Assembly (NCBI GenBank): GCA_004000515.1
Contig: CP034537.1
Span: forward strand, 124,001 to 188,000
Origin: Pseudomonas poae
GTDB lineage: Bacteria > Pseudomonadota > Gammaproteobacteria > Pseudomonadales > Pseudomonadaceae
Reading direction: 5' to 3'
Length of the DNA: 64,000 nucleotides
Below are positions 5,137-19,951 of the stretch, piece after piece; within the stretch, counting starts at the first letter, position 1; every line of letters begins with the position of its first letter. The translations under genes were made by a program, and so were the position numbers. The notes beneath the pieces were generated by a model, which saw nothing but the letters and a program-made list of their open reading frames with translations, did no database searches and was not told the DNA's origin.

Positions 5137-5188
5137 TAAGCAGGTTCGTGGCGGGGCCAACAGCTCTGGTTGACCCAAGGCATCTGTG

Positions 5189-7095
5189 ATGAAATGCGAC
5201 CCCAATCAATATCGCGCCGCGCCGCCATCACTTGCCGTGAAGCCTCGTCTGATTCGCCAGCTGTTCCTGCCGCCGTTGATCGTCGCCCTGATGATCGGCT
5301 TGGGTTTTATCGGCTTCTGGGTCAGTGAGTACTATGGCATCCGCACCCTCAGCGACACCGGCGAACGCCAGTTGGAGCTGCACGCCCGCACCGTCGAGAG
5401 CGAACTGAGCAAATACACCTACCTGCCCAGCCTCCTGGAACTGGAGTCCAGCGTTTCCAAGTTGCTGGCCGACCCGAGCCAGGAAACCCGCAAGACCGTC
5501 AACGATTACCTCGAAGGCCTGAACCGACGCAGTCGCAGCCGCGCCATCTACGTGATGGACACCACCGGCCGTGTGCTGGCCACCAGCAACTGGCGCGATG
5601 CCGACAGTTACCAGGGTGAAGACCTGTCCTTCCGTGCCTATTTCCAGAATGCCGTACGTGGCCAACCCGGGCGCTTCTACGGTATCGGCAGCACCAACGG
5701 TGAACCCGGTTATTACCTGGCCCATGGCCTGGAAGAACACGGCAAAATCATCGGCGTGGCCGTGGTCAAGGTGCGCCTAGAAGCGCTGGAAGAACGCTGG
5801 CAGCGCGCTCGCCTCGAAGCCTTTGTGAGCGACGAGAACGGCATCATCATCCTCTCCAGCGACCCGGCCCGCCGCCTCAAGGCCGTGCGGCCGCTGAGCG
5901 ATGATACTAAAGAGCGCCTGGCCCACAGCCTGCAATATTACTGGGCCACGCTCAACGAACTCGAACCCCTGGCCCGCGAACGCCTCAACGAAGGCACTGA
6001 GAAGCTCACGTTCCCGGCCAACAGCGAAGTGGTCAACGACGAGCACGAAGTCAGCTACCTGGCGCAGACGCGTCCGCTCAACGACACGCCGTGGAACTTC
6101 ACCCTGCTCACGCCGCTGAATGACCTGCGCCGCGCCGCGATCAACCAGGGCATCCTGGTGGCCGTCGCTTTTGGTTTGGTGGCGTTCTTGTTGATCGCCT
6201 GGAACGAGCGGCGCAAGGTCATCGCCACCCGCCTCGCTGCGCGAGAAGCCTTGCAGGAAGCCAACAGCCAACTGGAGCGTCGGATTGCCGAACGCACCGC
6301 CGACTTGCGCGCCAGCAACGAACGGCTCAAGGGCCAGATCCGCGAACGACGCCAGGCCGAAGAAACCCTGCGCCGCGCCCAGGATGAACTGGTGCAGGCC
6401 GGCAAATTGGCGGCCATCGGCCAGATGTCCACCAGCATCGCCCACGAACTCAACCAGCCCTTGGCCGCGCTGCGCACCTTGTCCGGCAACACCGTGCGTT
6501 TCCTCGAACGCGGCGCCTTGGACACCGCCAGCGCCAACCTCAAGACCATCAACGAACTGATCGACCGCATGGGCCGCATCACCGCCAGCCTGCGCTCCTT
6601 TGCCCGGCGCGGTGACGATCAAGGCGAGGCCAGCCTGACGAAAGCGGTGGATGCCGCGTTCCAGGTACTCGGCGCACGCCTGGACAGCCTGCCGCTAACC
6701 CTGCACAGCGACTTTTCCCCGCGCAATTGCAGATCGACCAGACGCGCCTGGAGCAGATCCTGGTCAACCTGATCGGCAATGCCCTCGACGCCATGCAAGC
6801 CCAGCCGGCCCCGCAACTGTGGCTGGAAGGCAGCACCTGCGAAGGTAAATACCGCCTGCTGGTGCGCGACAACGGCCACGGCATCGACCCCGAGGCGCGC
6901 AAGCATTTGTTCGAACCGTTCTTCACCACCAAACCCGGCGAACAAGGCCTGGGCCTGGGCCTGACCCTGTCCGCCAGCCTCGCGGCGGCCACCGGCGGCA
7001 ACCTCGCCGTGGAGCACCCCGCCGGTGGTGGTACTGCCTTTGTCTTGTGCCTGCCGTTGGTGGGCGCTCAAAAGCTGAGTCCACATGAATACTGA
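5189..7095 (+). CDS. aauS: Sensor histidine kinase for acidic amino acids (one frameshift near 6725)
   Basis: Inner-membrane kinase of the DctB type that signals to AauR. Membrane helix 1 spans about residues 25-48, a periplasmic double-PAS-like sensor about 50-310, and helix 2 about 315-338. A coiled coil follows, then HisKA with SIAHELNQPLAALR (phospho-His) and HATPase_c with NLIGNALDAM, DNGHGID and GLGLGL. The frame breaks near 6722-6728: restoring one base joins LHSDFSPR to LQIDQTRLEQ and gives 635 residues, the usual family length. A sequence error is likely. I start at ATG 5189; a GTG just before it is possible. The gene overlaps aauR by 11 bases. Confidence 0.88.
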
Positions 7096-8422
7096 CCCTA
7101 AAGACCTCACCGTCCTGATTGTCGAAGACGATCCCCATGTGCTGCTCGGCTGCCAGCAGGCCCTGACCCTGGAAGACATTCCCAGCGTCGGCGTGGGCAG
7201 TGCCGAAGAGGCGCTGAAGCGCATCGGCGAGAACTTCGCGGGCATTGTGATCAGCGATATCCGCCTGCCGGGCATCGACGGCCTGGAGTTGCTCACCCGC
7301 CTCAAGGCCCTGGATAAAAGCCTGCCGGTGGTGTTGATCACAGGCCATGGTGATATCTCCATGGCGGTCGGCGCGATGCGCAACGGCGCCTACGATTTCA
7401 TGGAGAAACCCTTCTCCCCGAACGCCTGGTGGACGTGGCCCGCCGAGCCCTGGAACAACGCGGGCTGGCCCGAGAAGTGTGGTCGCTGCGTCGCCAGTTG
7501 GCCGAGCGCGACTCCCTGGAAGGCCGCATCATCGGCCGCTCGCCGGCCATGCAGAACCTGCGCGAATTGATCGCCAACGTCGCCGACACCTCGGCCAACG
7601 TCTTGATCGAAGGCGAGACCGGTACCGGCAAGGAACTGGTCGCCCGTTGCCTGCATGATTTCAGCCGCCGCCACGATCACCAGTTCGTCGCCCTGAACTG
7701 CGGCGGCCTGCCGGAGAACCTGTTCGAAAGCGAGATATTCGGCCACGAAGCCAACGCCTTTACCGGCGCCGGCAAACGCCGTATCGGCAAGATCGAGCAC
7801 GCTCACGAAGGCACGTTGTTCCTCGATGAAGTGGAAAGCATGCCGATCAACCTGCAGATAAAACTGCTGCGCGTGTTGCAGGAACGCACCCTGGAACGCC
7901 TGGGTTCCAACCAGAGCGTAGCGGTGGATTGCCGGGTGATCGCGGCCACCAAGTCCGACCTCGACGAGCTGAGCCGCGCCAGCCAATTTCGCAGCGACCT
8001 GTATTACCGCCTCAACGTGGTCACCCTGGAACTGCCTCCCGCTGCGCGAGCGCCGTGAAGACATCCTGCAATTGTTCGAACACTTCCTGCAGCAGTCGTC
8101 GCTACGTTTTGACCGCAGTGTGCCGGAGCTGGACAACCAGACCCTGTCGACCCTGATGAGCCACGACTGGCCGGGCAACGTACGCGAACTGCGCAACGTC
8201 GCCGAACGTTTCGCCCTTGGCCTGCCCGCCTTCAAGAAAAGCGGCGCCGGCGGCGGCAGCGGTGGCTTGGCCTTTACCGAAGCGGTGGAAGCCTTCGAAC
8301 GCAACCTGCTCAGCGATGCCTTGCAACGCAGCGGCGGCAACTTGACCCAGGCGAGCCAGGAACTGGGGCTGGCCAAGACCACGCTGTTCGACAAGGTCAA
8401 GAAATACGGGTTGAGCCACTGA
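7085..8422 (+). CDS. aauR: Sigma-54-dependent response regulator for acidic amino acid use (two frameshifts)
   Basis: NtrC-family activator that would bind the boxes upstream of aatJ and drive sigma-54 transcription. The receiver domain (residues 1-120) has the phospho-Asp in ISDIRLPGIDG. The AAA+ domain has Walker A GETGTGKE and Walker B LFLDEV. The usual GAFTGA loop reads NAFTGAG, so the first Gly is Asn. A Fis-type helix-turn-helix ends the protein. Two shifts interrupt the frame: C4 at 7416-7419 (one C short, giving SPERLVDVARR) and CCC at 8038-8040 (one C too many, giving LELPPLRERRED). They compensate, giving 445 residues. The stop overlaps glpM by one base. Confidence 0.87.
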
Positions 8423-8873: not shown

Positions 8874-10271
8874 TCACCGTACGATCTTGTCGACTTGGAT
8901 GCCCAGCTTTTTCAGGCGATACCAGAAGCTTCTTTCTGATATCCCGATCTTCTGCGCCGCTGCGGCCTGCACGCCATTGCTCTCCTGCAAGGCGGCCAGG
9001 ATATAAGCCTTCTCCACCTCCGCCAACGCCGCATCCAGGTCCTGGGGAATGCCGGGCCCGTCGCTGAGAATCGCTGTCACATCACCCTCGCTCGGTTTGG
9101 AGGCAAACAGATACCCCGGCAGGTCGATGTCCTCGATCACCGGCGTGGCCGCGACGATCGTCGCCCGCTCCACGCAGTTTTGCAGTTCGCGAATGTTGCC
9201 CGGCCAGTGATACGCCGCCATGGCCTGCAACGCTTCCGGGCTAAAGCCGGTGATGCGTTTGCCGGCGGTAGCGCTCAAGGTCTGGGCAAAGTGCCGGGCC
9301 AACGGCGCGATGTCTTCCACGCGCTCGCGCAAGGCCGGCAGCGGGATTGGGAACACGTTGAGGCGGTAATACAGGTCTTCGCGAAACTCTTTGTTGGCCA
9401 CCGCATCCAGCAGGTTCTTGTTGGTGGCGGCGATCACTCGCACATCCACCTTGCGCTCACGCGGATCGCCCACCGGCTCGATCACCCGTTCCTGCAAAGC
9501 GCGCAAGATCTTGGCCTGCAACGCCAGCGGCATATCGCCCACTTCATCGAGAAACAGCGTGCCCTTGTCAGCCTGCTGGAAACGCCCTACCCGGTCCGAC
9601 ACAGCTCCGGTAAACGCGCCTTTGCGATGGCCGAACATTTCGCTTTCCAGCAAGCCTTCGGGGATGGCCGCGCAGTTGACCGCCACAAAGGGCTTGTCGG
9701 CACGGCTACCGTGCTTGTGGATAGCCCGCGCGACCATTTCCTTGCCGGTGCCGCTTTCGCCGGTGAGCAGGATGGTGGCGCTGCTGTCGCGCACCGAATC
9801 CACCGCTTGCAGCACTTTGCGAAACGCCGGGCTGTCGCCCACCAGGCTGTCGAATTGCGCATGCTCGTCCAGTTCGGCGCGCAGGCGGGCGTTGTCGCGC
9901 ATGATGTCGCGAAACTGCAGGGCCTTGGCCACGGTGATGTCCAGCTCGTCGATATCGAACGGTTTGGCGATGTAGTCGTAAGCGCCGTTGCGCATCGACT
10001 GCACCGCATTTTTCACCGTGCTGTACGCCGTCATCACGATCACTGGCAAGTGCGGGTAACGCACCTTGATCTCGGCCAACAATGCCGGCCCGTCCATGCC
10101 CGGCATGCGCCAGTCACTGATGACTAGGTCGATGTCTTCCTGTTCCAGTACCTTGAGCGCATGCAGGCCGTTACCGGCGGTGAACACCTGGATACCGCTC
10201 TGGCTCAGGGCTGACGACAGCAAGTCACAGAGTTTGGGCTCGTCATCGACTACCAATACGTTATGCGTCAT
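8874..10271 (-). CDS. Sigma-54-dependent response regulator, last gene of a six-gene operon
   Basis: NtrC-family activator of 465 residues. The receiver has D9/D10 and phospho-Asp D53 (ISDWRMPGMDG). The AAA+ domain has Walker A GESGTGKE, an intact GAFTGA sigma-54 contact loop and Walker B LFLDEVGDM. A Fis-type helix-turn-helix lies at the C-terminus (KIGISERSFWYRLKKLGI). I start at the ATG at 10271, just before HNVLVVDDEP; the open frame runs further upstream but lacks homology. It overlaps the kinase gene by 11 bases. Its likely targets are the -24/-12 promoter at 16183-16199 and the inverted repeat at 16258-16287, so the operon would be self-regulated. The signal is unknown. Confidence 0.92.
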   Translation of the reverse strand: MTHNVLVVDDEPKLCDLLSSALSQSGIQVFTAGNGLHALKVLEQEDIDLVISDWRMPGMDGPALLAEIKVRYPHLPVIVMTAYSTVKNAVQSMRNGAYDYIAKPFDIDELDITVAKALQFRDIMRDNARLRAELDEHAQFDSLVGDSPAFRKVLQAVDSVRDSSATILLTGESGTGKEMVARAIHKHGSRADKPFVAVNCAAIPEGLLESEMFGHRKGAFTGAVSDRVGRFQQADKGTLFLDEVGDMPLALQAKILRALQERVIEPVGDPRERKVDVRVIAATNKNLLDAVANKEFREDLYYRLNVFPIPLPALRERVEDIAPLARHFAQTLSATAGKRITGFSPEALQAMAAYHWPGNIRELQNCVERATIVAATPVIEDIDLPGYLFASKPSEGDVTAILSDGPGIPQDLDAALAEVEKAYILAALQESNGVQAAAAQKIGISERSFWYRLKKLGIQVDKIVR

Positions 10272-12039
10272 GACCTTCCTCGTCGTCTCCGTCATCGTCA
10301 CCCTGAGCCGGAATGTACAGGCTGAAGGTGGCGCCGGCATCTTTCTCACTGGCGCATTCAATGCTGCCGTCGTGACTTTCCATGATCGAATAGACTTTGG
10401 CCAGGCCCAAACCGGTGCCGGACGCCTTGGTGGTGACGAATGGCGTGAAGATGCGCTCGATCATATCCGCAGGGATGCCCTGGCCGGTGTCGGCGATGCT
10501 GATCAAGGTGTTGTCGCCCACGCTGCGAATGCCCAGGGTCAATCGCCCGCCTTCGGGCATTGCGTCGATGGCGTTGAGAATCAGGTTGAGGCAGGCCTGC
10601 TTGAGTTGCTTGGCGTCCGCGTAGATCTTCGCATCCGGCGCCTGGTCATCGACTTGTGCGTCGATGGTGTGGCTGGCGAGCTCCGGCGCGCAGAAGCCGA
10701 GGATTTCATCCACCAGCGGACGCGCCGCCTGCAACACCCGGATGGGCGGGTTGGGCTTGGCGAAGTCGAGGAACTCGGTAATCAGGTCGTTGATTCGGCT
10801 GACCTCGCTGATCACGTACTCCAGATGGCGCTTGTCGGTTTCCGCCAGGTCGGCACGCCGATGCAGCAGCTGCGTGGCGGTTTTGATGATGCCCAGCGGG
10901 TTGCGGATCTCGTGGGCCAGGCCCATGGCGACTTCACCCAGGGCGTGCAAGCGGTCGCGCCGGCGCAACTGGGCTTCAAGGTGATGCAGTTCACCCAGGC
11001 GTTCGGTCATGTGGTTGAAGGTGCTGCTCAATTGCGCCAACTCATCACCGCCGCTGACCAGCACACGGTGCTCATAATTGCCGGAAATCACCGCGTCCAC
11101 GCCTTGTGACAAGTCCCGCAGCGGCTTGGTCAGGCGCCGCGACACCAACACCCCGGCTGCCAGCGACAGCGCTGAGCTGAGCAAGAAAATCAGCACGAAC
11201 AGATTGCTCTGGTTCACCAGCCCCACCAGGCTGGTATGGCGCAGCAGCCCGCTGAAAATCACGCCTTGCAGCTCACCGGCGTCATTGAAGATCGGCCAGT
11301 ACAGGCCGCTGTACTTGCTGGTGAATTGCTCGCTGGGTTGCTTGGTGCTACGCATCTCGGTTTCAACACTCTTCGGGATGCGCGAGGGGTGATCCACGAA
11401 GCGTTGGGTCGAAAAAATCTCCGAGAACCCTTCAGGGTTAGCCAGGTATAGACGCAGGTCGAGGGAGTGCACATCGGCCACGCTGGTGAGGAAGCTGCTG
11501 TCCAGGTAGGTCGCCACCAGCAACAGGTAGTCCTCGCCGTCACGGTTGGTCTCGAAGGTCGAGACCACCAGCCCCGTGCTCACCCCCGCTACTTGTACGG
11601 TCTGCAACACGGCGTTGCTGGTCAGGTTGATCTGCTTGACGATGTCATCGGCAGCCGTGCTGAACACCACCTTGTGGTCGCTGACGCGAATCAGCGCCAC
11701 CACGTCGATGTCCGTGGCGTCGGCAATGTCGGCGGTCAGTCGATCATGCTTAGCGGCCTGTCTGGACGATGGCGGGCTGGTATAGCGCAGGAACAATTTG
11801 GCCATGCGCGCGTTGTCGTGAAGGATGTCGCCAATCTCGTCCTTGACGATCTTGGTCGACTCCTGCAGCCAGATGCGCACGTTGCTGTCGAAAATCTGCG
11901 ACAGCGTGGTCGCCGCCAACTCCGCCGCAATCATCGTGGGAATTACGCTGACCAACCAGAACGCCAGCACCAGCTTACGCTGGACGCTCCAGCGCGAAAT
12001 GGCAAAGGGGCGGGCTTTCTGGCGGGTCTTGGTAATCAT
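10261..12039 (-). CDS. Membrane sensor histidine kinase, partner of the adjacent sigma-54 activator
   Basis: Kinase of 592 residues. Helix 1 spans about residues 25-48 and a large periplasmic sensor domain about 50-275. Helix 2 follows at about 280-305, then a HAMP linker. HisKA carries ALGEVAMGLAHEIRNPLG (phospho-His). HATPase_c carries NLILNAIDAMP, DTGQGIP and GTGLGLAKV. All kinase motifs look intact. It is encoded 82 bases after the acyltransferase gene and overlaps the regulator gene. The periplasmic domain does not tell me the ligand; the upstream enzymes may make it or respond to it. Confidence 0.9.
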   Translation of the reverse strand: MITKTRQKARPFAISRWSVQRKLVLAFWLVSVIPTMIAAELAATTLSQIFDSNVRIWLQESTKIVKDEIGDILHDNARMAKLFLRYTSPPSSRQAAKHDRLTADIADATDIDVVALIRVSDHKVVFSTAADDIVKQINLTSNAVLQTVQVAGVSTGLVVSTFETNRDGEDYLLLVATYLDSSFLTSVADVHSLDLRLYLANPEGFSEIFSTQRFVDHPSRIPKSVETEMRSTKQPSEQFTSKYSGLYWPIFNDAGELQGVIFSGLLRHTSLVGLVNQSNLFVLIFLLSSALSLAAGVLVSRRLTKPLRDLSQGVDAVISGNYEHRVLVSGGDELAQLSSTFNHMTERLGELHHLEAQLRRRDRLHALGEVAMGLAHEIRNPLGIIKTATQLLHRRADLAETDKRHLEYVISEVSRINDLITEFLDFAKPNPPIRVLQAARPLVDEILGFCAPELASHTIDAQVDDQAPDAKIYADAKQLKQACLNLILNAIDAMPEGGRLTLGIRSVGDNTLISIADTGQGIPADMIERIFTPFVTTKASGTGLGLAKVYSIMESHDGSIECASEKDAGATFSLYIPAQGDDDGDDEEGHDA

Positions 12040-12121
12040 CAGGTTTCGCTTATCGCAGCAGCCATGGCAGGGTCGGAACGGTCCGGTCGAATAAACATTT
12101 TCACTACTTTGAGCAGGCCGT

Positions 12122-13162
12122 TCACCAGCCGGTTACGGTGCCGGAAAACAGGCTGTTGCCCTGGAACTCGCAGCCCAGGCGCAGCTTACTGGCATACCCG
12201 GCCTGCCCGCACTCGTACAACGCAATATTGTGTTGAATACAGTAGTCGACATTGGTCAGCCAACTGCGGAAGTACAGGTTGTATTCACGGGTGAACTCAA
12301 CGTCATGCCCGAAAAACTTGTCCACCAGCCGGTGCTCGTCCACCAGGATCAGGTTGAACGCCACCAGATGCTCGTCGACCCAGTAAAGAACACACACCGC
12401 ACGCTCTTCAAGGCGTTCAAGCACCCCGGTGAAGTAACCGGCAGGCAAGCGTTCGAATTGCAGGTCGGCACGGGTCAGCGTGGCTTCGTACAGGCGCATG
12501 ATCTCGGGCAACACATCGTCGATGTTGCGCCGCCACTCTACCCGCGGCCCCGGCGCTCGCAGTTTGCGGCGCAGGTCTTTGCGGGTGGATTTACCCAACG
12601 AACCGAGGTAGGCGTCCACCGAGCCATAAGGCAGCGGCAACAGCCCGGTAGGCAGGCTTGGCATGCTTTGGAAACCCGCGGCACGGCAGCTTTCTGCCCA
12701 GTGCGGGTCGTTGGTCGGCGCGTCCTTGACCGCCACCAGGCCGATACCGAACTCGTCGGCATCCTGGCGTGCAGCCGCGAGCACATGCTTGAGCAGCAGC
12801 GGGCGATGCGCCTCGGGCACGCTGCTGGCAAAACCTGCGTCGCAGCGCTCGGCCACCGGCGAGCCGATGGCATACAGGCCCAACTGCAAAACACCCGGCC
12901 ACAGTCGCTCCAGGCGTTCGGTCAAACGCTTGCCGGCGCCCGACACCGTGGTGTCGAGGCGATAATGCGTGATGAACGCGGCAGCCACCGCCACCAGCGT
13001 TCCATCTTCGTAAACAGCCAGGTAACGCCACCGGAAGTCATCGATAGCGGCGTTTTCCACGGCAACGTAATAGTCCCAGTCCTCCAGGGCACCGGGGAAA
13101 CAGTCGTTCCAGGCACTGCGCTGGATGGCCCGGATAGTCGAGAAGGCTTGGGCGGTTATCAC
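12122..13162 (-). CDS. FemAB/GNAT-like acyltransferase
   Basis: Cytoplasmic protein of 346 residues. The C-terminal half resembles the FemAB-like/BioF2 acetyltransferase fold (DUF482-type annotations): FNLILVDEHRLVDKFFGHD, where a substrate-bound strand is followed by YNLYFRSWLTNVDYCI (only core parts cited). A cluster of Lys/Arg at about residues 191-203 (STRKDLRRKLR) is typical of this group. These enzymes move an acyl or aminoacyl group onto an amine. Sixteen bases separate it from the esterase gene upstream, so they are co-transcribed. The substrate is not known; an aminotransferase product made by the same operon is a reasonable guess. Confidence 0.75.
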   Translation of the reverse strand: MITAQAFSTIRAIQRSAWNDCFPGALEDWDYYVAVENAAIDDFRWRYLAVYEDGTLVAVAAAFITHYRLDTTVSGAGKRLTERLERLWPGVLQLGLYAIGSPVAERCDAGFASSVPEAHRPLLLKHVLAAARQDADEFGIGLVAVKDAPTNDPHWAESCRAAGFQSMPSLPTGLLPLPYGSVDAYLGSLGKSTRKDLRRKLRAPGPRVEWRRNIDDVLPEIMRLYEATLTRADLQFERLPAGYFTGVLERLEERAVCVLYWVDEHLVAFNLILVDEHRLVDKFFGHDVEFTREYNLYFRSWLTNVDYCIQHNIALYECGQAGYASKLRLGCEFQGNSLFSGTVTGW

Positions 13163-13178
13163 GTCAGGTCCTTAAGGC

Positions 13179-14045
13179 TTACGCCCGCTGTCGATAGTCT
13201 TCGGGTGCCTCGATGGCGTGGGCATGTTGTTCGATGAACTCGGCACTCAACTCGATCACGCGGCGGTATTGCAGGTCGACGGTGATCATGTGATAGCAGT
13301 TGTCCAACAGGATCTTGGTCACCGGACCACCGAGGTGGCGCTCCACGTAATCGGCGTTCCAGCGGCTGGTAATGTCATCCTCGATGGAATGCAGCACCAA
13401 CGCTGGCACCTTGACCTGGGGCATGCGCTTCTTGACCACGGCGTTCATCCGGTGCAACTCGCGCACCGTGATTCCCTCCATCGTCAGCAAGCCCGCCTCG
13501 CTGCTGTGCCCTTCCTTCATCTGGCGCTCGACGATCGCCCGCAGGCGCTCGTTCTTGATGCCATACGGCGGCTTCTCTTCGAAGCGACAGATATGCACGC
13601 CGAACGGAATCTTCATCAACAACGGCGTCAGGAACGCCAGCTTGTGAATGCTCCAGCCGTCGTACTTCAAGGTGGTGGAATACATCAGCAACCCGGCCAC
13701 TTGGCCAGGGTGCTCGGACGCCACGTACATCGACATCACCGCGCCCATGGACAAGCCACCGACAAACACCTGTTCGTGCCGCTGCTTGACCTGGACGAAG
13801 GTCTTGCGCACCCCTTCGTACCAGTCCAGCCAGCCGGTGGCCTGCAGGTCGCTGTTACCACCGCAATGCCCGGCCAGGGTCGGCACGTACACCGTGCAGT
13901 TGCCGGCCTTGGCCAGGCCCTTGGCGACCTGGCGCAATTCCGTCGGGGTGCCGGTCAGGCCGTGGATCAGCAGGATCCCGACCGGACCTTCACCGAGAAC
14001 GAAGCCGGCATCACCTTCACCGAGGTCGATCTCGATGTTGCTCAC
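13179..14045 (-). CDS. Alpha/beta-hydrolase, carboxylesterase type
   Basis: Cytoplasmic esterase-like enzyme of 288 residues. It shows the oxyanion-side motif LLIHGLTGTP near residue 27, the nucleophile elbow GGLSMGAV and the late acid/His region (HSIEDDIT; NCYHMITVD). The layout resembles Est30-type carboxylesterases and monoacylglycerol lipases. The start is a GTG at 14045, overlapping the aminotransferase stop (GTGA), so translation is coupled. Its neighbours suggest it trims or hydrolyses an ester or lactone in a small-molecule pathway, but the substrate cannot be read from sequence. Confidence 0.85.
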   Translation of the reverse strand: MSNIEIDLGEGDAGFVLGEGPVGILLIHGLTGTPTELRQVAKGLAKAGNCTVYVPTLAGHCGGNSDLQATGWLDWYEGVRKTFVQVKQRHEQVFVGGLSMGAVMSMYVASEHPGQVAGLLMYSTTLKYDGWSIHKLAFLTPLLMKIPFGVHICRFEEKPPYGIKNERLRAIVERQMKEGHSSEAGLLTMEGITVRELHRMNAVVKKRMPQVKVPALVLHSIEDDITSRWNADYVERHLGGPVTKILLDNCYHMITVDLQYRRVIELSAEFIEQHAHAIEAPEDYRQRA

Positions 14046-15436
14046 CGTTTGGTTGCCCGCACCAGCAGTTGTTCCAGGAGTTTCAGGCCCAGGTCGATTT
14101 CCGGGTAGCTGATTTCCAGGGACGGTGCCAGGGTGATCACGTTTTTGTAGTAGCCGCCCACGTCGAGGATCAGGCCGAGTTTCTGGCCATCGACGATCAT
14201 GTCGCCTTTCATGCCTTCTTCGACCATGTAGTCCAGGGTCGCCTTGTCCGGGGTGAAACCGTCCGGGCCGCAGATTTCGCAGCGCAGGGCCAGGCCCAGG
14301 CCGTCGACGTCGCCGATGATCGGGAAGCGTTTTTGCAGGTCTTGCAGGCCTTCCAGGAAGTATTTGCCCTTGGCCATGACCATCGCGCCGTAGTCGACTT
14401 CGCTGGTCATCTTGAACATTTCCAGGCCTACCGCCGTCCCCAGTGGGTTGGAGGCGAAGGTGGAGTGGGTCGAACCTGGTGGGAAGATCTTCGGGTTGAT
14501 CAACTCTTCACGGGCCCAGATGCCGCCCAGTGGGTTGAGGCCGTTGGTCAGCGCCTTGCCGAAGACGATCACGTCCGGCTGCACGTCGAAGTGCTCGATC
14601 GACCACAGTTTGCCGGTGCGATAGAAGCCCATCTGGATTTCGTCGGACACCATCAGGATGCCGTGCTGATCCAGCACATGCTTCAACTCGCGGTAGAAGT
14701 TCATCGGTGGGATCACGTAGCCGCCGGTGCCTTGGATCGGCTCGACGTAGAACGCGGCGTATTCGCTGGAACCGACTTTCGGGTCCCACACACCGTTGTA
14801 TTCAGTCTCGAACAGACGCGCGAATTGCTGCACGCAGTGGCTGCCGTATTCTTCCTTGGTCATGCCTTTAGGGCCGCGGAAGTGGTACGGGAACGGGATG
14901 AACTGCGCGCGCTCGCCGAAGTGGCCGTAGCGACGACGGTAGCGGTAGCTGGAGGTGATCGACGATGCACCGAGGGTGCGGCCGTGGTAGCCGCCTTCGA
15001 AGGCGAACATCAGGCTCTTGCCGTTGGTGGCGTTACGCACGACCTTCAGGGAGTCTTCGATGGACTGCGAACCACCGACGTTGAAGTGCACGCGACCGTC
15101 GAGGCCGAACTTTTTCTTGGCGTCGACTGCGATCATTTCCGACAGCTCGATCTTGCCTTTGTGCAGGTACTGGCTGGCAATTTGCGGCAGGGTATCGATC
15201 TGTTGTTTCAGTGCATTGTTCAGGCGTGGGTTGGCGTAGCCGAAGTTGACAGCCGAGTACCACATTTGCAGGTCGAGGTAGGCCTGGTCTTCGGTGTCCC
15301 ACACGTAGGAGCCTTCGCAACGGCTGAAAATACGCGGTGGCTCGATGTAGTGAACGGTGTCGCCGTAGGAGCAATACTTGGCTTCTTTATCCAGAAGAAT
15401 CTGGTCTTCGGCGGTAGCGATACGGATATCAGACAT
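14042..15436 (-). CDS. Class III PLP-dependent aminotransferase
   Basis: Transaminase of 464 residues. PLP-site landmarks are the GGYHGRTLGA loop, the cofactor Asp in MVSDEIQMGF, and the Schiff-base Lys in VFGKALTNGLNPLGG. The substrate-side loop STHSTFASNPLGTAVG is also typical of the fold. Class III enzymes move the amino group of an omega-amino acid, diamine or amino-keto compound. I start at the ATG at 15436; the open frame upstream overlaps the HAD gene and has no homology. It overlaps the HAD gene by eight bases and the esterase by four. Similar proteins are often labelled aspartate aminotransferase family; true specificity is unknown. Confidence 0.9.
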   Translation of the reverse strand: MSDIRIATAEDQILLDKEAKYCSYGDTVHYIEPPRIFSRCEGSYVWDTEDQAYLDLQMWYSAVNFGYANPRLNNALKQQIDTLPQIASQYLHKGKIELSEMIAVDAKKKFGLDGRVHFNVGGSQSIEDSLKVVRNATNGKSLMFAFEGGYHGRTLGASSITSSYRYRRRYGHFGERAQFIPFPYHFRGPKGMTKEEYGSHCVQQFARLFETEYNGVWDPKVGSSEYAAFYVEPIQGTGGYVIPPMNFYRELKHVLDQHGILMVSDEIQMGFYRTGKLWSIEHFDVQPDVIVFGKALTNGLNPLGGIWAREELINPKIFPPGSTHSTFASNPLGTAVGLEMFKMTSEVDYGAMVMAKGKYFLEGLQDLQKRFPIIGDVDGLGLALRCEICGPDGFTPDKATLDYMVEEGMKGDMIVDGQKLGLILDVGGYYKNVITLAPSLEISYPEIDLGLKLLEQLLVRATKR

Positions 15437-16130
15437 GGTGGAAGAGTTCCTGATTGTCAGCAGCAGTAAAGGTGGTGGCGTTGGCAGCAATGCCTTGAGG
15501 CAGTTGGGCCAGCAATGCAGGCGCTTCGGCGAACGTGTCGAAGCGCGCATGGGGAATGTTGTGGGTCACGCAGTAGTCGGCGAGGCTGCCTTTGGCGAAG
15601 ACGAAGTCGGCGGTCGAGGCCACGCACATGTCGGACTTGCCGTCGCCGATCACCAGCACGCGCTTGTTGCGCGGCGTGGATTTGCACTTGCAGTTGCCGG
15701 AGGCCGCACGGCAGGCATCGCTGGAGTACGGAAAGTCGATGCGCCAGCTGTTCTGGTCGACTTGGCGCAGGCGGTTGGCGAGGATCGGCAGCAAGGTCAC
15801 GTAGTTGCGCGACAGGATCCGCGCGATGCCTTGCTCGATGCCGTCGCTGACCACTTCGATGGTCGCGCCCAAGCCCATGACGTGGTCGACGAAGTCCGGG
15901 AAGTCCGGGTCGATCTCGACGCTGTCGAAATACGTCAGCAGTTCGGTTGGGGTGGCCTTGATCAGCGCCAGTTGACGGCTCAGGCATTCGCGTGAACCGA
16001 TATGCCCATCCAGCCATTCCTGTTCGATGGTTTCCCACTCGGGGCCGGCGAAGCGTTGGAGGACGTTGTCGATGACATCGGTGGGGGTAATGGTCCCGTC
16101 GAAGTCACACACGATATGCCAGTGGATCAT
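15429..16130 (-). CDS. MtnX-like HAD-IB family phosphatase
   Basis: Phosphatase of 233 residues and first gene of the six-gene operon. HAD motif I is CDFDGTITPTD (nucleophile D9, acid D11), motif II VVSDG, and motif IV VIGDGKSDMC. The family includes MtnX of methionine salvage and phosphoserine phosphatase-like enzymes. A Cys-rich insert (residues about 158-172, CRAASGNCKCK) is unusual and could bind a metal. No other methionine-salvage gene is near, so a role in MTA recycling is unlikely. A dedicated small-molecule pathway with the aminotransferase fits better. Confidence 0.85.
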   Translation of the reverse strand: MIHWHIVCDFDGTITPTDVIDNVLQRFAGPEWETIEQEWLDGHIGSRECLSRQLALIKATPTELLTYFDSVEIDPDFPDFVDHVMGLGATIEVVSDGIEQGIARILSRNYVTLLPILANRLRQVDQNSWRIDFPYSSDACRAASGNCKCKSTPRNKRVLVIGDGKSDMCVASTADFVFAKGSLADYCVTHNIPHARFDTFAEAPALLAQLPQGIAANATTFTAADNQELFHHV

Positions 16131-16182
16131 CTGCGATTACCTTGGAGGAAGAGCGCGCTCTGTGCGCTTGCAGAGGGTGTAC

Positions 16183-16199
16183 AGCAGGGAGTGTGCCAA
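16183..16199 (-). promoter_or_regulatory. Sigma-54 (-24/-12) promoter of the HAD-aminotransferase-TCS operon
   Basis: On the minus strand TTGGCACACTCCCTGCT carries GG, exactly ten bases, then GC. It matches TGGCAC-N5-TGCT well. Transcription would start near 16172, about 40 bases before the HAD gene. The operon encodes its own sigma-54 activator, which supports the call. Confidence 0.75.
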
Positions 16200-16257
16200 C
16201 TGGCTATCGCCCAGCGGGGCTGGGGGTTTGGCAGGTAGCGATGATGATATGTGTCGA

Positions 16258-16287
16258 GCAAGCTACAATTTTTGTAGCTTGCTACAA
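16258..16287. promoter_or_regulatory. Perfect inverted repeat, probable activator (UAS) site
   Basis: GCAAGCTACAA-TTT-TTGTAGCTTGC (16258-16282) is a perfect 11-base dyad. An overlapping second dyad TTGTAGC-TT-GCTACAA (16272-16287) adds a third half-site. It lies about 75 bases upstream of the -24 element on the minus strand, where an NtrC-type activator would bind. It could also serve the divergent porin gene. Confidence 0.65.
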
Positions 16288-16359
16288 ACAAGATGAGTGC
16301 TTGCGCGAGGGGGCCCTTCGCGCGTTCATGCGCGCATGTCCACACAAGGAAACCGTTTC

Positions 16360-17130
16360 ATGCTCAAGGTCAGTTCTGCTGTATTCGTCGGTTTGCTGGG
16401 GCTGTGGGGCTTTTCCAGCACGGCCCTGGCCGATCCGATCACCGGTGAAGTGGGCGCGGGCCTCAGCTATCAACCCCACGACCCTACCGGCAGCCGCTAC
16501 GAAACACGTCCCGTGCCCTACCTGGACCTGGACTGGGGCAACGTCAGCCTGAGCACCGATGACGGCCTGACCTGGAGCGCGCTGAACACCAACGGTTTCA
16601 CGGCTGGCCCCTACATCAACTACCTGCAAGGGCGTACGTCAAATGGCTCGCTGCAGGGCCTGCGCAACGTCTCGGACATGGCCGAAGTCGGTGGTTTTGT
16701 GCAGTACGCACCGGCCGAGTTCTGGCGGGTGTACGCCCAGATGGGCCAAACCGTCGGCGGCGGGCGCGACCAAAGTGGCGTGGTCGGCAAACTCGGCGGC
16801 GAGCTGGGCTACCCGCTGGGTGGCGGAATTATCGGCAGCAGCGGCCTGATGGCGCACTTCGCCGACGCCCGCCAAACCCAGACCTATTTCGGCGTCGATG
16901 CCGACGAATCCGCGGCCTCCGGCATTCGCCCCTACAACGCCAGCGCGGGCTTCCAGAACCTCACGCTGACCCAGAGCTTTGAATTCCCACTGGCCTCCAA
17001 CTGGTCCCTGCTGACCAGCGCCAGCTGGGTCCACCTGGTGGGCTCGGCGGCCAACAGCACCATCGTCAAGGAGACCGGCGACGTGAACCAAGGCCAGGTG
17101 CAGACGGCGATCAGCTACAAGTTCGACTAA
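16360..17130 (+). CDS. MipA/OmpV family outer-membrane protein
   Basis: Outer-membrane barrel of 256 residues. A signal peptide covers about residues 1-24 (hydrophobic FVGLLGLWGF core, STALA cleavage site, mature DPITGEV). The mature part is a row of short amphipathic strands, ending in AISYKFD with an aromatic next to the C-terminus. MipA in E. coli is an MltA-interacting scaffold; many relatives act as porins or have unknown roles. I start at the ATG at 16360, preceded by AAGGA; an upstream in-frame extension would hide the signal peptide. It is divergent from the HAD operon. Confidence 0.85.
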   Translation: MLKVSSAVFVGLLGLWGFSSTALADPITGEVGAGLSYQPHDPTGSRYETRPVPYLDLDWGNVSLSTDDGLTWSALNTNGFTAGPYINYLQGRTSNGSLQGLRNVSDMAEVGGFVQYAPAEFWRVYAQMGQTVGGGRDQSGVVGKLGGELGYPLGGGIIGSSGLMAHFADARQTQTYFGVDADESAASGIRPYNASAGFQNLTLTQSFEFPLASNWSLLTSASWVHLVGSAANSTIVKETGDVNQGQVQTAISYKFD

Positions 17131-17205
17131 AATCACACACTTTTTTACAAACTGGTCTGAGCCTTGCAATAACGCCCCTGAATCCATTTTTCCAGGACGT
17201 TCTTC

Positions 17206-18068
17206 ATGGCTCGCCCCGCTACCGCCTGCTCCATCACTCGCTGTGGGACCTGATCCCCATTGCCATGGGCCTGGCGCATTTCGCCTTTGTGATCTGGTTG
17301 GTCACAGCCTTCCATAGCCTGAGCTGGTGGGCCTTGGTGCCGCTGGCGTTGGTGTACGCGGTGAGCCTGTCGTGGAGCATCAACAGCATCTCCCACAACC
17401 AGATCCACAATGCCTATTTCACCCATCGCGCAGTGAACCGTGCCTTCGACCTGCTGCTGTCGGTAACCATCGGTTTTTCCCAGACGCTGTACCGCGACAT
17501 CCACAACCGCCATCACCGTGGCAACGCCGACCTGCCGGGGCAGGATGGGCAAACCATCGACCCGCTGTCGATCTACCAGCGCGGCAAAAATGGCCAGCCG
17601 GAAAACCCGTGGGCGTATACGTTCCTGAGCTTTTTCCGTGACGATCCCAAGCCGTTCTACGACGAAATGAAGCGCAAACGCCCGGCGGATGCACGTTGGG
17701 TCAAGGTAGAAATCGTCGTGACAGTGGCGTTCTATATCGCCTTGGCGTTCTACAACTGGCAGGCGGTGCTGTGGCTGCTGCCGTTCTGGTACCTGGGCCA
17801 GTGCCTGTCATCGCTCAATGGCTACTACGAACACTTCGGCGGCAACCCGGACCTGCCGATTGCCTGGGGCGTGAGTTCCTACAGCGTGCTGTACAACCTG
17901 ATCTGGATGAACAACGGCTATCACGCCGAGCATCACTACCGGCCAAAGATGCACTGGACCAAAGTGAAGGCGTTTCACCGCGAGATCGCCGAGCAACAGC
18001 GTGAAGCCGGGGTCAAGACGCTGCCGGTGTCCCACGGCTTGGGTTTCCTGGTTGCACACCGTAAATAA
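17206..18068 (+). CDS. Membrane fatty acid desaturase (one frameshift near 17216)
   Basis: Di-iron acyl desaturase of 287 residues in the inner membrane. It has the histidine boxes HNQIHNAYFTH, HNRHHRG and NGYHAEHHYRPKMHW that hold the two irons, with two pairs of membrane helices between them. It would introduce a double bond in membrane lipid or acyl-CoA chains with oxygen. The natural start is the ATG at 17206 with an AGGA site. One C is missing from the run 17214-17217; restoring it joins MARPR to YRLLHHSLWDLIP. Without that correction the protein would appear to start at 17265 and lose its N-terminus. No DesT-type regulator gene is adjacent. Confidence 0.85.
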
Positions 18069-18163: not shown

Positions 18164-18579
18164 TCAGTTTTCTTCGCCTTCGGCCAACAGCGCAATGCCG
18201 CCGATAATCACCGCCACGCCCACCCAGTGCAGCGGGCTGATATGTTCCCCAGCCCCAGCCACGAGCCCAGCAACACCACCACAAACACCAGTGAACTCAG
18301 CGGGAACGCCAGGGACAGGCTGCTGCGTCGCAAAATCAGCATCCACACGAAGAAGGCGCCGATGTAGCTGCCGATCGCCGCCAGGATGCCTGGGTTACGC
18401 GCCACATCGGCCAACCATTGCCAAGTGAGGTCCATCTGGCCCAACTGGTCACCGGCCACTTTGGTAAACAACTGGCCGGCGCTTTCAAAGCCGATCAGCA
18501 ACGCCCACAGCACCACGGTGCCAAGGCGACCGTGCAGCCATCCGCTTGGACGTTCCACCACCATTTCCTGCGAATTCAT
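18164..18579 (-). CDS. EamA-type small transporter subunit 2 (one frameshift near 18248)
   Basis: Four-helix membrane protein of 138 residues, one half of a paired EamA/DMT transporter. Helices lie at about residues 21-41, 58-78, 82-102 and 115-133. The stretch LSLAFPLSSLVFV is typical of ArnE/ArnF- and EamA-like proteins. The frame breaks at C4, 18247-18250: restoring one base joins GSWLGLG to EHISPLHWVGVAV and supplies the fourth helix. Its start overlaps the stop of subunit 1 (ATGA), so both are made together, as expected for a heterodimer. The substrate is unknown; the upstream ureohydrolase may give a hint. Confidence 0.78.
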
Positions 18580-18956
18580 GCCTGACTCCCGGCAATTGCC
18601 ACCAACATCACACCCACGGTAATCACCAATGTGCCCGCCCATCGGCGGCGGCTGACGGTTTCCTTGAGCACCACCTTGCCCGCCAGCACCACGCCGCAAT
18701 AGGCCAGCGCGGCCGCCGGGAACAGCAGGCTCAGCGGCGCACGGGACAACGCTTCAAGCCACACGAAAAACTCGATGGCATAGGCGCCGATTCCGGCCCA
18801 CAGCAATGGCGCATTGAACACCTGGCCCCAGAACGCATTCAGGCGAAAACCACCTTCCAGCTCCGGCAGGCGGTCCAGGCCGATCTTGAAACACAACTGG
18901 CCGATCACATCGAGCACGATGGAAAAGGCCACCAGCAGCACCACGGTCAGGGTCAC
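18576..18956 (-). CDS. EamA-type small transporter subunit 1
   Basis: Four-helix protein of 126 residues (helices about 3-21, 45-64, 70-93, 103-122). Motifs include GQLCFKIGLDRLPE after helix 1 and APLSLLFPAAALAY in helix 3. It belongs to the small DMT proteins that work as pairs. The GTG start at 18956 overlaps the ureohydrolase stop (GTGA), and its stop overlaps subunit 2. Three genes are thus translationally linked. No specific substrate can be assigned. Confidence 0.8.
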   Translation of the reverse strand: MTLTVVLLVAFSIVLDVIGQLCFKIGLDRLPELEGGFRLNAFWGQVFNAPLLWAGIGAYAIEFFVWLEALSRAPLSLLFPAAALAYCGVVLAGKVVLKETVSRRRWAGTLVITVGVMLVAIAGSQA

Positions 18957-19873
18957 GGGAACAACTCCTCAAACAGGTCGATCAGGGCTTCATTGGTGGC
19001 GGCATTGCGCTGTATATCCTCGGCGCTCCAACGCTCGGGCGGAGGCTGGTCGGACTTGGCCTCCCAGCGCTTGAACGCGTTACTGAACGCAGGCGTGGCG
19101 AACTCACCGCACACGTCGATGCCAATGATGCGTTTACGCGCCGCCAACGCTCGCAGGGCTTGCAACAAGTGGGTCAAGCGCATGCCGCCCTGGTCCCAGT
19201 TGGTGGCGGCGTCTTCGCTGGCCAATACGTCTTTGTCGATGGTGATCCAGATGGCCTCAGTGGGCAGGCTGGTGATCATCTGTTCCAGAAACTGCGCCCA
19301 ATCCAACTCCGCGAGGTTGCGCCAGTGCAGGTGGTTTTCCTGCTGCTGGTGACCGGCGCCATCGCCCACCCGGCCCCAGACTTTCGACGGCGGATGCTGC
19401 CAGGGAAACAGCTGCAAGTGCCCACGCTTGAGGGCGCCCAGGTTGCCGCCGCGCAGTTGCGGGTTATGCAGGTCGTCGCTGCACGGGCCCAGTGTGACGA
19501 TGCGTTTGATCGCCGGCATCTTCAACGCGCGGTTGACCCACGAGCCGCAGTGGCGCTTGGGCGCAAAGCGCACCCAGTCAGGGTGGTTGTCGAAGTGGAT
19601 CAGGCTGATGGGTTCTTTAAGGTCGGCCAGAAAAGCCGGGGTGAGGTGGTGGTAGTCACCAGAGCCGACAAACAGGATTTCCGGTCGCGCATCCACGGGC
19701 CGGGGCCGCTTGGCCAGGCGCTCGGCGAAGGCCTTCCAGGTTTTTTCGGTGGACCACAGGCGCAGCTTCGGGCCCAGGTCCAGCAGGTCGAGGCGCGTGG
19801 CCTGACCGCTGGCCAACCGCCGGGCAATCGGAGCCTGGCTTGTTAGGCTGTGGTCGAGGTCAAGAATATTCAA
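18953..19873 (-). CDS. Arginase/ureohydrolase family protein
   Basis: Protein of 306 residues with the ureohydrolase fold. Metal-site motifs are recognisable but not canonical. Loop IHFDNHPDW corresponds to the DAHxD manganese motif with Asn in place of the small residue. Loop WITIDKDVLASEDAATNW corresponds to the SxDxDxxDP motif, with the terminal Asp-Pro missing. GIDVCGEF occupies the place of the last motif. Arginase, agmatinase and guanidine hydrolase are the known activities of the superfamily; this is a divergent branch and substrate prediction would be a guess. It heads a coupled operon with two EamA half-transporters, suggesting breakdown and transport of the same nitrogen compound. 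Confidence 0.8.
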   Translation of the reverse strand: MNILDLDHSLTSQAPIARRLASGQATRLDLLDLGPKLRLWSTEKTWKAFAERLAKRPRPVDARPEILFVGSGDYHHLTPAFLADLKEPISLIHFDNHPDWVRFAPKRHCGSWVNRALKMPAIKRIVTLGPCSDDLHNPQLRGGNLGALKRGHLQLFPWQHPPSKVWGRVGDGAGHQQQENHLHWRNLAELDWAQFLEQMITSLPTEAIWITIDKDVLASEDAATNWDQGGMRLTHLLQALRALAARKRIIGIDVCGEFATPAFSNAFKRWEAKSDQPPPERWSAEDIQRNAATNEALIDLFEELFP

Positions 19874-19951
19874 GGCAGTGTTCCCCTTAGGCTTTAAGGG
19901 GGCAATGCAAGGGCCGGGCCAGCACTTATTTCAAGAACAACAAGAAACACA

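Follow-up and report, generated by a model that had tools for sequence, protein, structure and literature searches.

The window analysed here is a stretch of 64,000 nucleotides of Pseudomonas poae (assembly GCA_004000515.1, contig CP034537.1, positions 124,001 to 188,000 of the forward strand), and it holds six minus-strand genes which form an operon closed by the genes of a sensor kinase and a sigma-54-dependent regulator. Judged by sequence, this operon belongs to a cassette that comprises about 11 genes and extends to 19873, and in kind the system would be a dedicated two-component system on a biosynthesis-export cluster. We propose, with a confidence just short of even, that the cassette produces and exports an N-acylated amino-lipid destined for the envelope or the cell exterior and that it is switched on by its own two-component system; comparison across lineages lends strong support to the regulator being dedicated to this operon. 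The six genes are as follows.

15429-16130, minus strand: HAD-IB phosphatase of the MtnX-like subfamily (HAD), first gene of the operon; Pfam HAD and TIGR01489 above cut-off
14042-15436, minus strand: class III pyridoxal-phosphate (PLP) aminotransferase (AT) of a distinct, highly conserved subfamily; Pfam Aminotran_3
13179-14045, minus strand: alpha/beta hydrolase (ABH); Pfam Hydrolase_4
12122-13162, minus strand: FemAB-like/GNAT N-acyltransferase (FEM), with a frame break close to the 3' end; Pfam FemAB_like and Acetyltransf_6, both above cut-off
10261-12039, minus strand: sensor histidine kinase (HK) with HAMP, HisKA and HATPase_c domains (Pfam) and a periplasmic domain of about 220 residues
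8874-10271, minus strand: sigma-54-dependent response regulator (RR) with receiver, AAA+ and Fis-type helix-turn-helix domains (Pfam)

Open reading frames and Pfam matches place all six genes where a sequence-only reading had put them, with the couplings it gave: overlaps of 8 bases between HAD and AT, 4 between AT and ABH and 11 between HK and RR, and a gap of 16 bases between ABH and FEM. Genome searches show that the order of the six genes is kept in relatives, and they support its proposal of a single operon with a sigma-54-type promoter and its own two-component genes at the end. For the comparison within Pseudomonas 80 of 171 relatives were kept, corresponding to 79 distinct loci (71 Pseudomonas, 8 alphaproteobacterial); the 71 named Pseudomonas loci, some of them cut by contig ends, were searched with the window proteins only, a search that did not look for ketoacyl synthase (KAS), acyl carrier protein (ACP) or DegT. 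Where both genes lie on the contig, the 8-base HAD-AT overlap recurs in 64 of 69 of these loci and the 4-base AT-ABH overlap in 67 of 69, and in 70 of 71 FEM runs 1 or 4 bases into the start of HK. These couplings are old.

Two elements lie before the operon, as had also been proposed, and both are conserved.

16183-16199, minus strand: -24/-12 (sigma-54) element of the HAD operon, TTGGCACACTCCCTGCT, beginning 69 bases before the HAD start
16262-16288, no strand assigned: enhancer dyad made of two overlapping palindromes, with the core CTACAAAAATTGTAG at 16263-16277, which begins 97 bases before the start of the divergent gene mipA

By consensus alone TTGGCACACTCCCTGCT is not outstanding in the 64 kb, where 20 near-matches compare with 16.4 expected, and it is position and conservation rather than consensus that carry the weight: against 200 shuffles of its own upstream region the element has a p of about 0.005, and a scored search finds a site in 69/69 named Pseudomonas loci with HAD (66/69 by a strict pattern, the discrepancy being L087-L089). 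The exact enhancer core is found once in the whole 7.52-Mb genome, namely at the HAD operon, and the dyad CTACAA-N3-TTGTAG recurs exactly in 68 of 69 Pseudomonas loci. Written as CTMCAA-N3-TTGKAG it is common to Pseudomonas and alphaproteobacteria, and with at most one mismatch it is present in nine of ten non-Pseudomonas loci (all but L146; the ten include L149, where the contig stops short of any regulator). Even when two mismatches are allowed it occurs in none of 24 control loci, these being the 28 loci without a HAD -24/-12 site less L156, L159, L160 and L161. The consensus was drawn from the same loci, which makes these counts partly circular, and the shuffles and the 24 controls serve as the safeguard. 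Chance as an explanation of either dyad or promoter is rejected on the conservation across loci. A regulon beyond the cassette finds no support, as the exact core occurs once and one-mismatch copies occur at 3 places against 10 for a reversed control pattern. No convincing sigma-54 element was found for mipA; beside the enhancer on the mipA side (16290-16310) the 11 Pseudomonas upstream sequences printed contain a block, CAAGCACTCAT or CAAGCACTGAT, that may be part of the mipA promoter.

The pairing of regulator and promoter was followed across lineages by calling an RR cognate when its AAA domain was at least 60% identical, and by scoring the sequences upstream of HAD for a -24/-12 element; loci L166-L185 stand outside the resulting counts. 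All 78 loci with a cognate RR (69 named Pseudomonas and 9 others, from Aureimonas, Roseomonas, Ancylobacter, L146, L148 and L162) have the element 45-85 bases before the HAD start, whereas it is present in just 1 of 29 loci lacking a cognate RR, namely L149, the contig of which ends before the RR position. Many of the loci without a cognate RR carry a different two-component pair beside the cassette according to their annotation, with an OmpR-type pair confirmed by Pfam for Agrobacterium fabrum 2788 and Xanthomonas sacchari only. The type of promoter thus switches along with the type of regulator, and the pairing extends across bacterial classes. As evidence from comparison this argues that RR drives the HAD operon, and the paired change looks like a clean natural rewiring of the regulation of one pathway. 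The recognition helix of RR reads ERS[FL]W[YH]R in 13 of the 15 rows printed, the exceptions being L100, where some residues are undetermined, and L161, whose unrelated RR differs. At L161 and L159 sigma-54-like sites (TTGGCCAAGTTTTTGCT, TTGGCTAGATTCTTGCT) lie about 200 bases before HAD, beyond the usual distance, and L161 has a different sigma-54 regulator nearby.

RR and HK belong to the NtrC family by their Response_reg, Sigma54_activat, HTH_8, HisKA and HATPase_c matches, all above the Pfam cut-off, and the order of domains in kinase and regulator, the -24/-12 element and the dyad at enhancer distance are shared with AtoS/AtoC, ZraS/ZraR and NtrB/NtrC. The best curated matches are indeed AtoC and AtoS, and in fold comparison the HK core resembles ZraS, but an assignment as AtoC/AtoS is rejected by scores below the curated cut-offs (487.5 of 714 and 225.5 of 646 bits), and the cassette differs from all of these systems in its neighbours and in having its own enhancer, CTMCAA-N3-TTGKAG. 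Sensors of the dCache type consist of two stacked alpha/beta modules after a long helix. In a structural model of HK (mean predicted local distance difference test score, pLDDT, 72; fold comparison mainly of the kinase core, residues 347-581) the periplasmic part looks like two alpha/beta modules following such a helix.

The six genes had been read as a small biosynthetic set joined to its own two-component system, and while the operon is real the set was drawn too small, since the cassette comprises about 11 genes with two more -24/-12 elements. The additional features are listed here; SMRa and SMRb denote two SMR-like membrane proteins.

16360-17130, plus strand: MipA/OmpV-family protein (mipA), divergent from HAD; MipA Pfam
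17152-17168, plus strand: -24/-12-type element before FAD, CTGGTCTGAGCCTTGCA, in 11/11 named Pseudomonas loci with the gene
17206-18068, plus strand: membrane di-iron enzyme of the fatty-acid desaturase family (FAD), FA_desaturase; start and nearby frame uncertain
18208-18579, minus strand: SMRb, aligning with EamA-annotated genes of rhizobial cassettes; C-terminus out of frame relative to relatives
18576-18956, minus strand: SMRa, sub-threshold EamA, aligning with EamA-annotated genes of relatives
18953-19873, minus strand: arginase-fold metallohydrolase (ARG), Arginase Pfam above cut-off
19906-19922, minus strand: -24/-12-type element before the ARG-SMR operon, CTGGCCCGGCCCTTGCA, in 55/55 named Pseudomonas loci with the gene

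Upstream of ARG the -24/-12 element is almost the sole conserved block, and such an element also precedes SMRa in three genomes (L168, L170 and L175); the FAD element is weak at the single locus, with a p of about 0.13. Among the proteins themselves, FAD keeps its three histidine boxes in 21 of 21 orthologs, and in ARG His75, Asp95, His97, Asp99, Asp213 and Asp215, which we take to be the metal ligands of the arginase binuclear site, are invariant in 17/17. Window SMRa scores 23.9 of 28.2 bits for EamA, below the cut-off, and window SMRb has no Pfam match, while the SMRb ortholog of Rhizobium reaches 33.0 of 28.2 bits for EamA and 21 of 23.7 for Multi_Drug_Res. Sequence searches returned no solved relative for ARG at E 0.1 and none for a FEM profile, and another such search gave one match at E = 1, which is not meaningful.

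In the window a frame break close to the 3' end of FEM keeps it from reaching HK; relatives have intact copies. SMRb and two genes outside the cassette (5186-7095 and 7085-8422) are likewise split between frames when compared with relatives, and the break in FEM is therefore probably a sequence error in this assembly; a real truncation was set aside on the same grounds. Near 2.8 kb and 21.75 kb two other genes show weaker signs of frame splitting. The two outside genes form a plus-strand two-component pair at 5186-8422, presumably DctB- and DctD-like, as read from the sequence alone with no family search.

As to distribution, FEM, HK and RR are present in all 71 named Pseudomonas loci, ABH in 70, HAD, AT and mipA in 69 (mipA adjoining HAD and divergent from it), ARG with both SMR genes in 55, and FAD in 11. 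Of 119 genomes sampled from the same genus, 34 have AT, 28 a close ortholog of FEM and 23 one of ARG, the sets being nested; a 29th genome has distant FEM paralogs only, and five have FEM but no close ARG ortholog. The cassette is modular in other ways as well: L168 and L170 combine mipA and HAD-AT-ABH-HK-RR with the SMR pair and have no FEM, and three of the five genomes just named, G031, G048 and G095, have a FEM-ARG pair with two SMR genes of the Xanthomonas type at a second locus, DegT aminotransferase being detected in two of these, while the main locus of G031 has neither ARG nor SMR. A penicillin-acylase-family gene stands beside the second-locus FEM-ARG-SMR set in 3/3 cases (L172, L173 and L174) and at no other locus searched; it was considered as a hint of an N-acyl amide and not used.

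Relatives of the cluster are found in Pseudomonas, Rhizobiales, Roseomonas and xanthomonads. A tblastn search with FEM returned 49 records of plasmids, including ones from Rhizobium, Agrobacterium, Sinorhizobium, Phyllobacterium, Aureimonas and Roseomonas, and the annotated neighbourhoods examined contain HAD, AT, ARG, EamA/SMR, FAD, ABH, GNAT, a second EamA/SMR and MipA in varying combination, some adding a cyclopropane-fatty-acid synthase. In A. fabrum 2788 (L032) an OmpR-type two-component pair (746-2769) precedes the cassette, and EptA and diacylglycerol kinase genes (11946-13981) follow it. In a phylum-wide sample of 398 genomes AT was found in 25 (E of at most 1e-150), that is in 12 of 212 genera. 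The 20 AT loci outside Pseudomonas, some of which are short contigs, have HAD in 18, ABH in 18, ARG in 10, DegT in 8, KAS in 6 and HlyD in 5, with FEM nearly whole in 9 and partial in 2; L163 and L164 consist of ACP-KAS-HAD-AT-ABH only. Xanthomonas sacchari R1 has a rich version near TolC and OmpR-type two-component genes, and the Xanthomonas version pairs an ABC protein of the DevA/LolD type with HlyD, TolC standing beside the ABC genes in relatives.

AT is the most constant of the enzymes, being 71-76% identical between the window and rhizobial cassettes, where the other shared enzymes and membrane proteins reach 24-54%, and 66-78% identical to non-Pseudomonas cassette members, with one at 55%. 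Lys294 and Arg153 are invariant in 137/137 aligned rows (110 distinct), and in the same rows residue 435 is always Thr. The corresponding position holds Arg in four of the five solved relatives printed, the fifth alignment ending earlier, and we take this Arg to be the acceptor-carboxylate site of GabT-type enzymes. Thr435 in its place therefore makes it unlikely, as far as sequence can tell, that AT is a standard 2-oxoglutarate transaminase; furthermore, assignments as GabT, OAT or ArgD are rejected, the best 25 curated models shown all being below cut-off. A class III enzyme resembling glutamate-1-semialdehyde aminomutase takes the place of AT in Aureimonas, Ancylobacter and Roseomonas, and its weaker solved matches include the aminotransferase domain of mycosubtilin synthase and beta-transaminases. 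HAD has DFDGTI in 133 of 137 orthologs and scores 83.8 of 81.55 bits for the broad MtnX-like subfamily TIGR01489, but it is not MtnX itself by the curated equivalogs (107 of 292 and 90.5 of 303.2 bits). ABH has GLSMG in 115 of 132 orthologs, and its best solved matches are bacterial monoacylglycerol lipases (E about 1e-31).

A lipid theme runs through the cassette and its relatives in the form of FAD, the monoacylglycerol-lipase-like ABH, cyclopropane synthase, EptA, the diacylglycerol kinase DgkA, KAS and ACP. These lipid-type enzymes and the lipid-type neighbours of some relatives (EptA, DgkA, cyclopropane synthase, KAS/ACP), taken together with an N-acyltransferase, the SMR pair, and HlyD-ABC and TolC genes, again in some relatives, make an exported N-acylated amino-lipid the likeliest product. 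The amino-acyl or amino-alcohol metabolite suggested from the six genes is possible, yet the wider gene set points to an amino-lipid. According to the proposed mechanism HK would detect a periplasmic signal and phosphorylate the AAA+ regulator RR, which would bind the dyad some 96-105 bp before the predicted start site, activate RNA polymerase-sigma-54 and amplify itself. HAD and AT would together yield an amine, for which a keto compound that is phosphorylated or bound to an acyl carrier is a possible precursor, and FEM would N-acylate this amine; FAD, and in relatives KAS/ACP or cyclopropane synthase, may shape the acyl chain. The lipase-like ABH could then trim or release the product, which the SMR pair would carry across the inner membrane, with MipA, or HlyD-ABC-TolC in relatives, serving the outer membrane.

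Several observations weigh against this proposal. The searches made gave no close characterised homologue for any enzyme of the set, matches of the SMR proteins to Pfam are marginal, and the 69 Pseudomonas loci behind the regulator-promoter pairing are related to each other and not independent. The lipid genes appear accessory in Pseudomonas, where FAD is present at 11/71 named loci and where a scan of 20 same-genus regions for KAS/ACP found neither. Furthermore, L166, L167, L169 and L171 are minimal, with mipA and HAD-AT-ABH-HK-RR and without FEM, ARG or SMR, so that the core product may not be N-acylated; G006 and G070, the other two of the five genomes with FEM but no close ARG ortholog, have no ARG match at all and an SMR pair in the main cluster; and L165, which has the most distant AT (55% identity), has none of the partner genes. 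Finally, a sequence search near the ARG and FAD elements revealed no enhancer-like site there, and activation of these elements could involve either DNA looping from the one enhancer or a different activator.

The main rival, which we consider unlikely on balance, is a diffusible small molecule, such as an amino-alcohol, an N-acyl amine signal or an antibiotic-like compound, exported by the SMR pair and HlyD-ABC-TolC. An aminotransferase, a phosphatase and an exporter are generally typical of such pathways, the distribution is patchy (34/119 same-genus and 25/398 phylum genomes), relatives have TolC-type exporters, and a Nostoc plasmid has distant FEM and AT homologues in a natural-product-like cluster; EptA, DgkA, cyclopropane synthase, the desaturase and the monoacylglycerol-lipase-like enzyme however point to a membrane lipid. 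On the Nostoc plasmid (L118, 3097-9689) a class III aminotransferase, a distant FemAB-like GNAT protein and a desaturase lie in one run close to a nitric-oxide-synthase oxygenase, and this run may be a distant relative of natural-product type.

A catabolic or detoxifying module, in which esterase, aminotransferase, phosphatase and ARG degrade an external nitrogen compound sensed by HK, seems to us quite improbable. It would fit the best-scoring curated regulator families, AtoC and NtrC, and the general role of sigma-54 in nitrogen use, but there is no uptake transporter among the 11 cassette proteins, the HlyD, ABC and TolC proteins of relatives are of export type, the N-acyltransferase, KAS and ACP are biosynthetic, and AT is without the Arg kept by solved relatives. 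Remodelling of peptidoglycan or lipid A, with FEM attaching an amino acid or an amine to a precursor of the wall and MipA as the link to wall enzymes, is equally improbable, for although PF04339 is described as peptidoglycan biosynthesis/recognition, MipA is named from an interaction with MltA, and EptA lies beside one relative and UppP beside Roseomonas versions, no wall-precursor enzyme is found among the 11 cassette proteins and the desaturase, KAS and ACP would be left unexplained.

Several known systems share features with the cassette. The ornithine-lipid pathway (OlsA/OlsB and OlsE) yields an amino-lipid by N-acyl transfer and includes a di-iron desaturase-like enzyme, but the acyltransferase of the cassette matches PF04339/PF13480, the aminotransferase and phosphatase are extra, and neither the OlsB-type N-acyltransferase nor the PlsC-type and glycerolipid O-acyltransferase families are among the Pfam matches of the 11 cassette proteins. 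Caulobacter-type ceramide synthesis resembles the Xanthomonas version in its logic, as it involves a PLP-made long-chain amine, GNAT-type N-acylation and a dedicated ACP; the cassette however has a class III aminotransferase and not an alpha-oxoamine synthase such as serine palmitoyltransferase. With the L-Ara4N (Arn) pathway and its ArnE/ArnF flippase the cassette shares a small SMR/EamA-like pair and, near some relatives, DegT aminotransferase, EptA or UppP, but no glycosyltransferase or sugar-nucleotide enzyme is present among the 11 cassette proteins scanned. PigE of the prodigiosin pathway is reportedly a class III transaminase of the TamH kind. From PigE and from the TamA/TamH enzymes of tambjamine synthesis the cassette AT differs in having no fused reductase, in its Thr for the C-terminal Arg, and in the extra phosphatase beside it. 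TamH, a class III transaminase, converts fatty aldehydes or acyl-ACP to amines (PMC9594044).

The earlier impression that no described pathway has this gene set agrees with the searches made, which gave no match to a characterised pathway, and no description of the set was found in the literature searched (most subscription papers were outside its reach); the papers returned, among them PMC7688217 and PMC9594044, were judged unrelated. Each part comes from a known superfamily. What appears to be undescribed within that literature is the combination of parts, along with the AT subfamily and the pairing of regulator and enhancer. A more far-reaching version, which we regard as rather unlikely, is that the product represents an undescribed class of amino-lipids, in which the arginine-less class III PLP enzyme would aminate an acyl-derived precursor and the FemAB-like enzyme would N-acylate it, giving an independent ceramide-like route in Proteobacteria, which the lineages would control by interchangeable two-component systems of sigma-54 or OmpR type, the promoters being swapped along with the systems. 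Fluorescent-type Pseudomonas, rhizobial and agrobacterial plasmids, human-associated Roseomonas and xanthomonads all carry versions of the cassette, and a surface lipid or exported metabolite of this type may therefore be common in host-associated Proteobacteria. The regulator and its single exact enhancer also provide a simple handle, since one over-expressed activator should turn the product on. A plasmid of a bat Bartonella (L116, 4367-10416) carries AT, FEM-like and weakly arginase-like genes, HAD and SMR genes not being annotated there, followed by an MBOAT acyltransferase and an AlgX-like protein.

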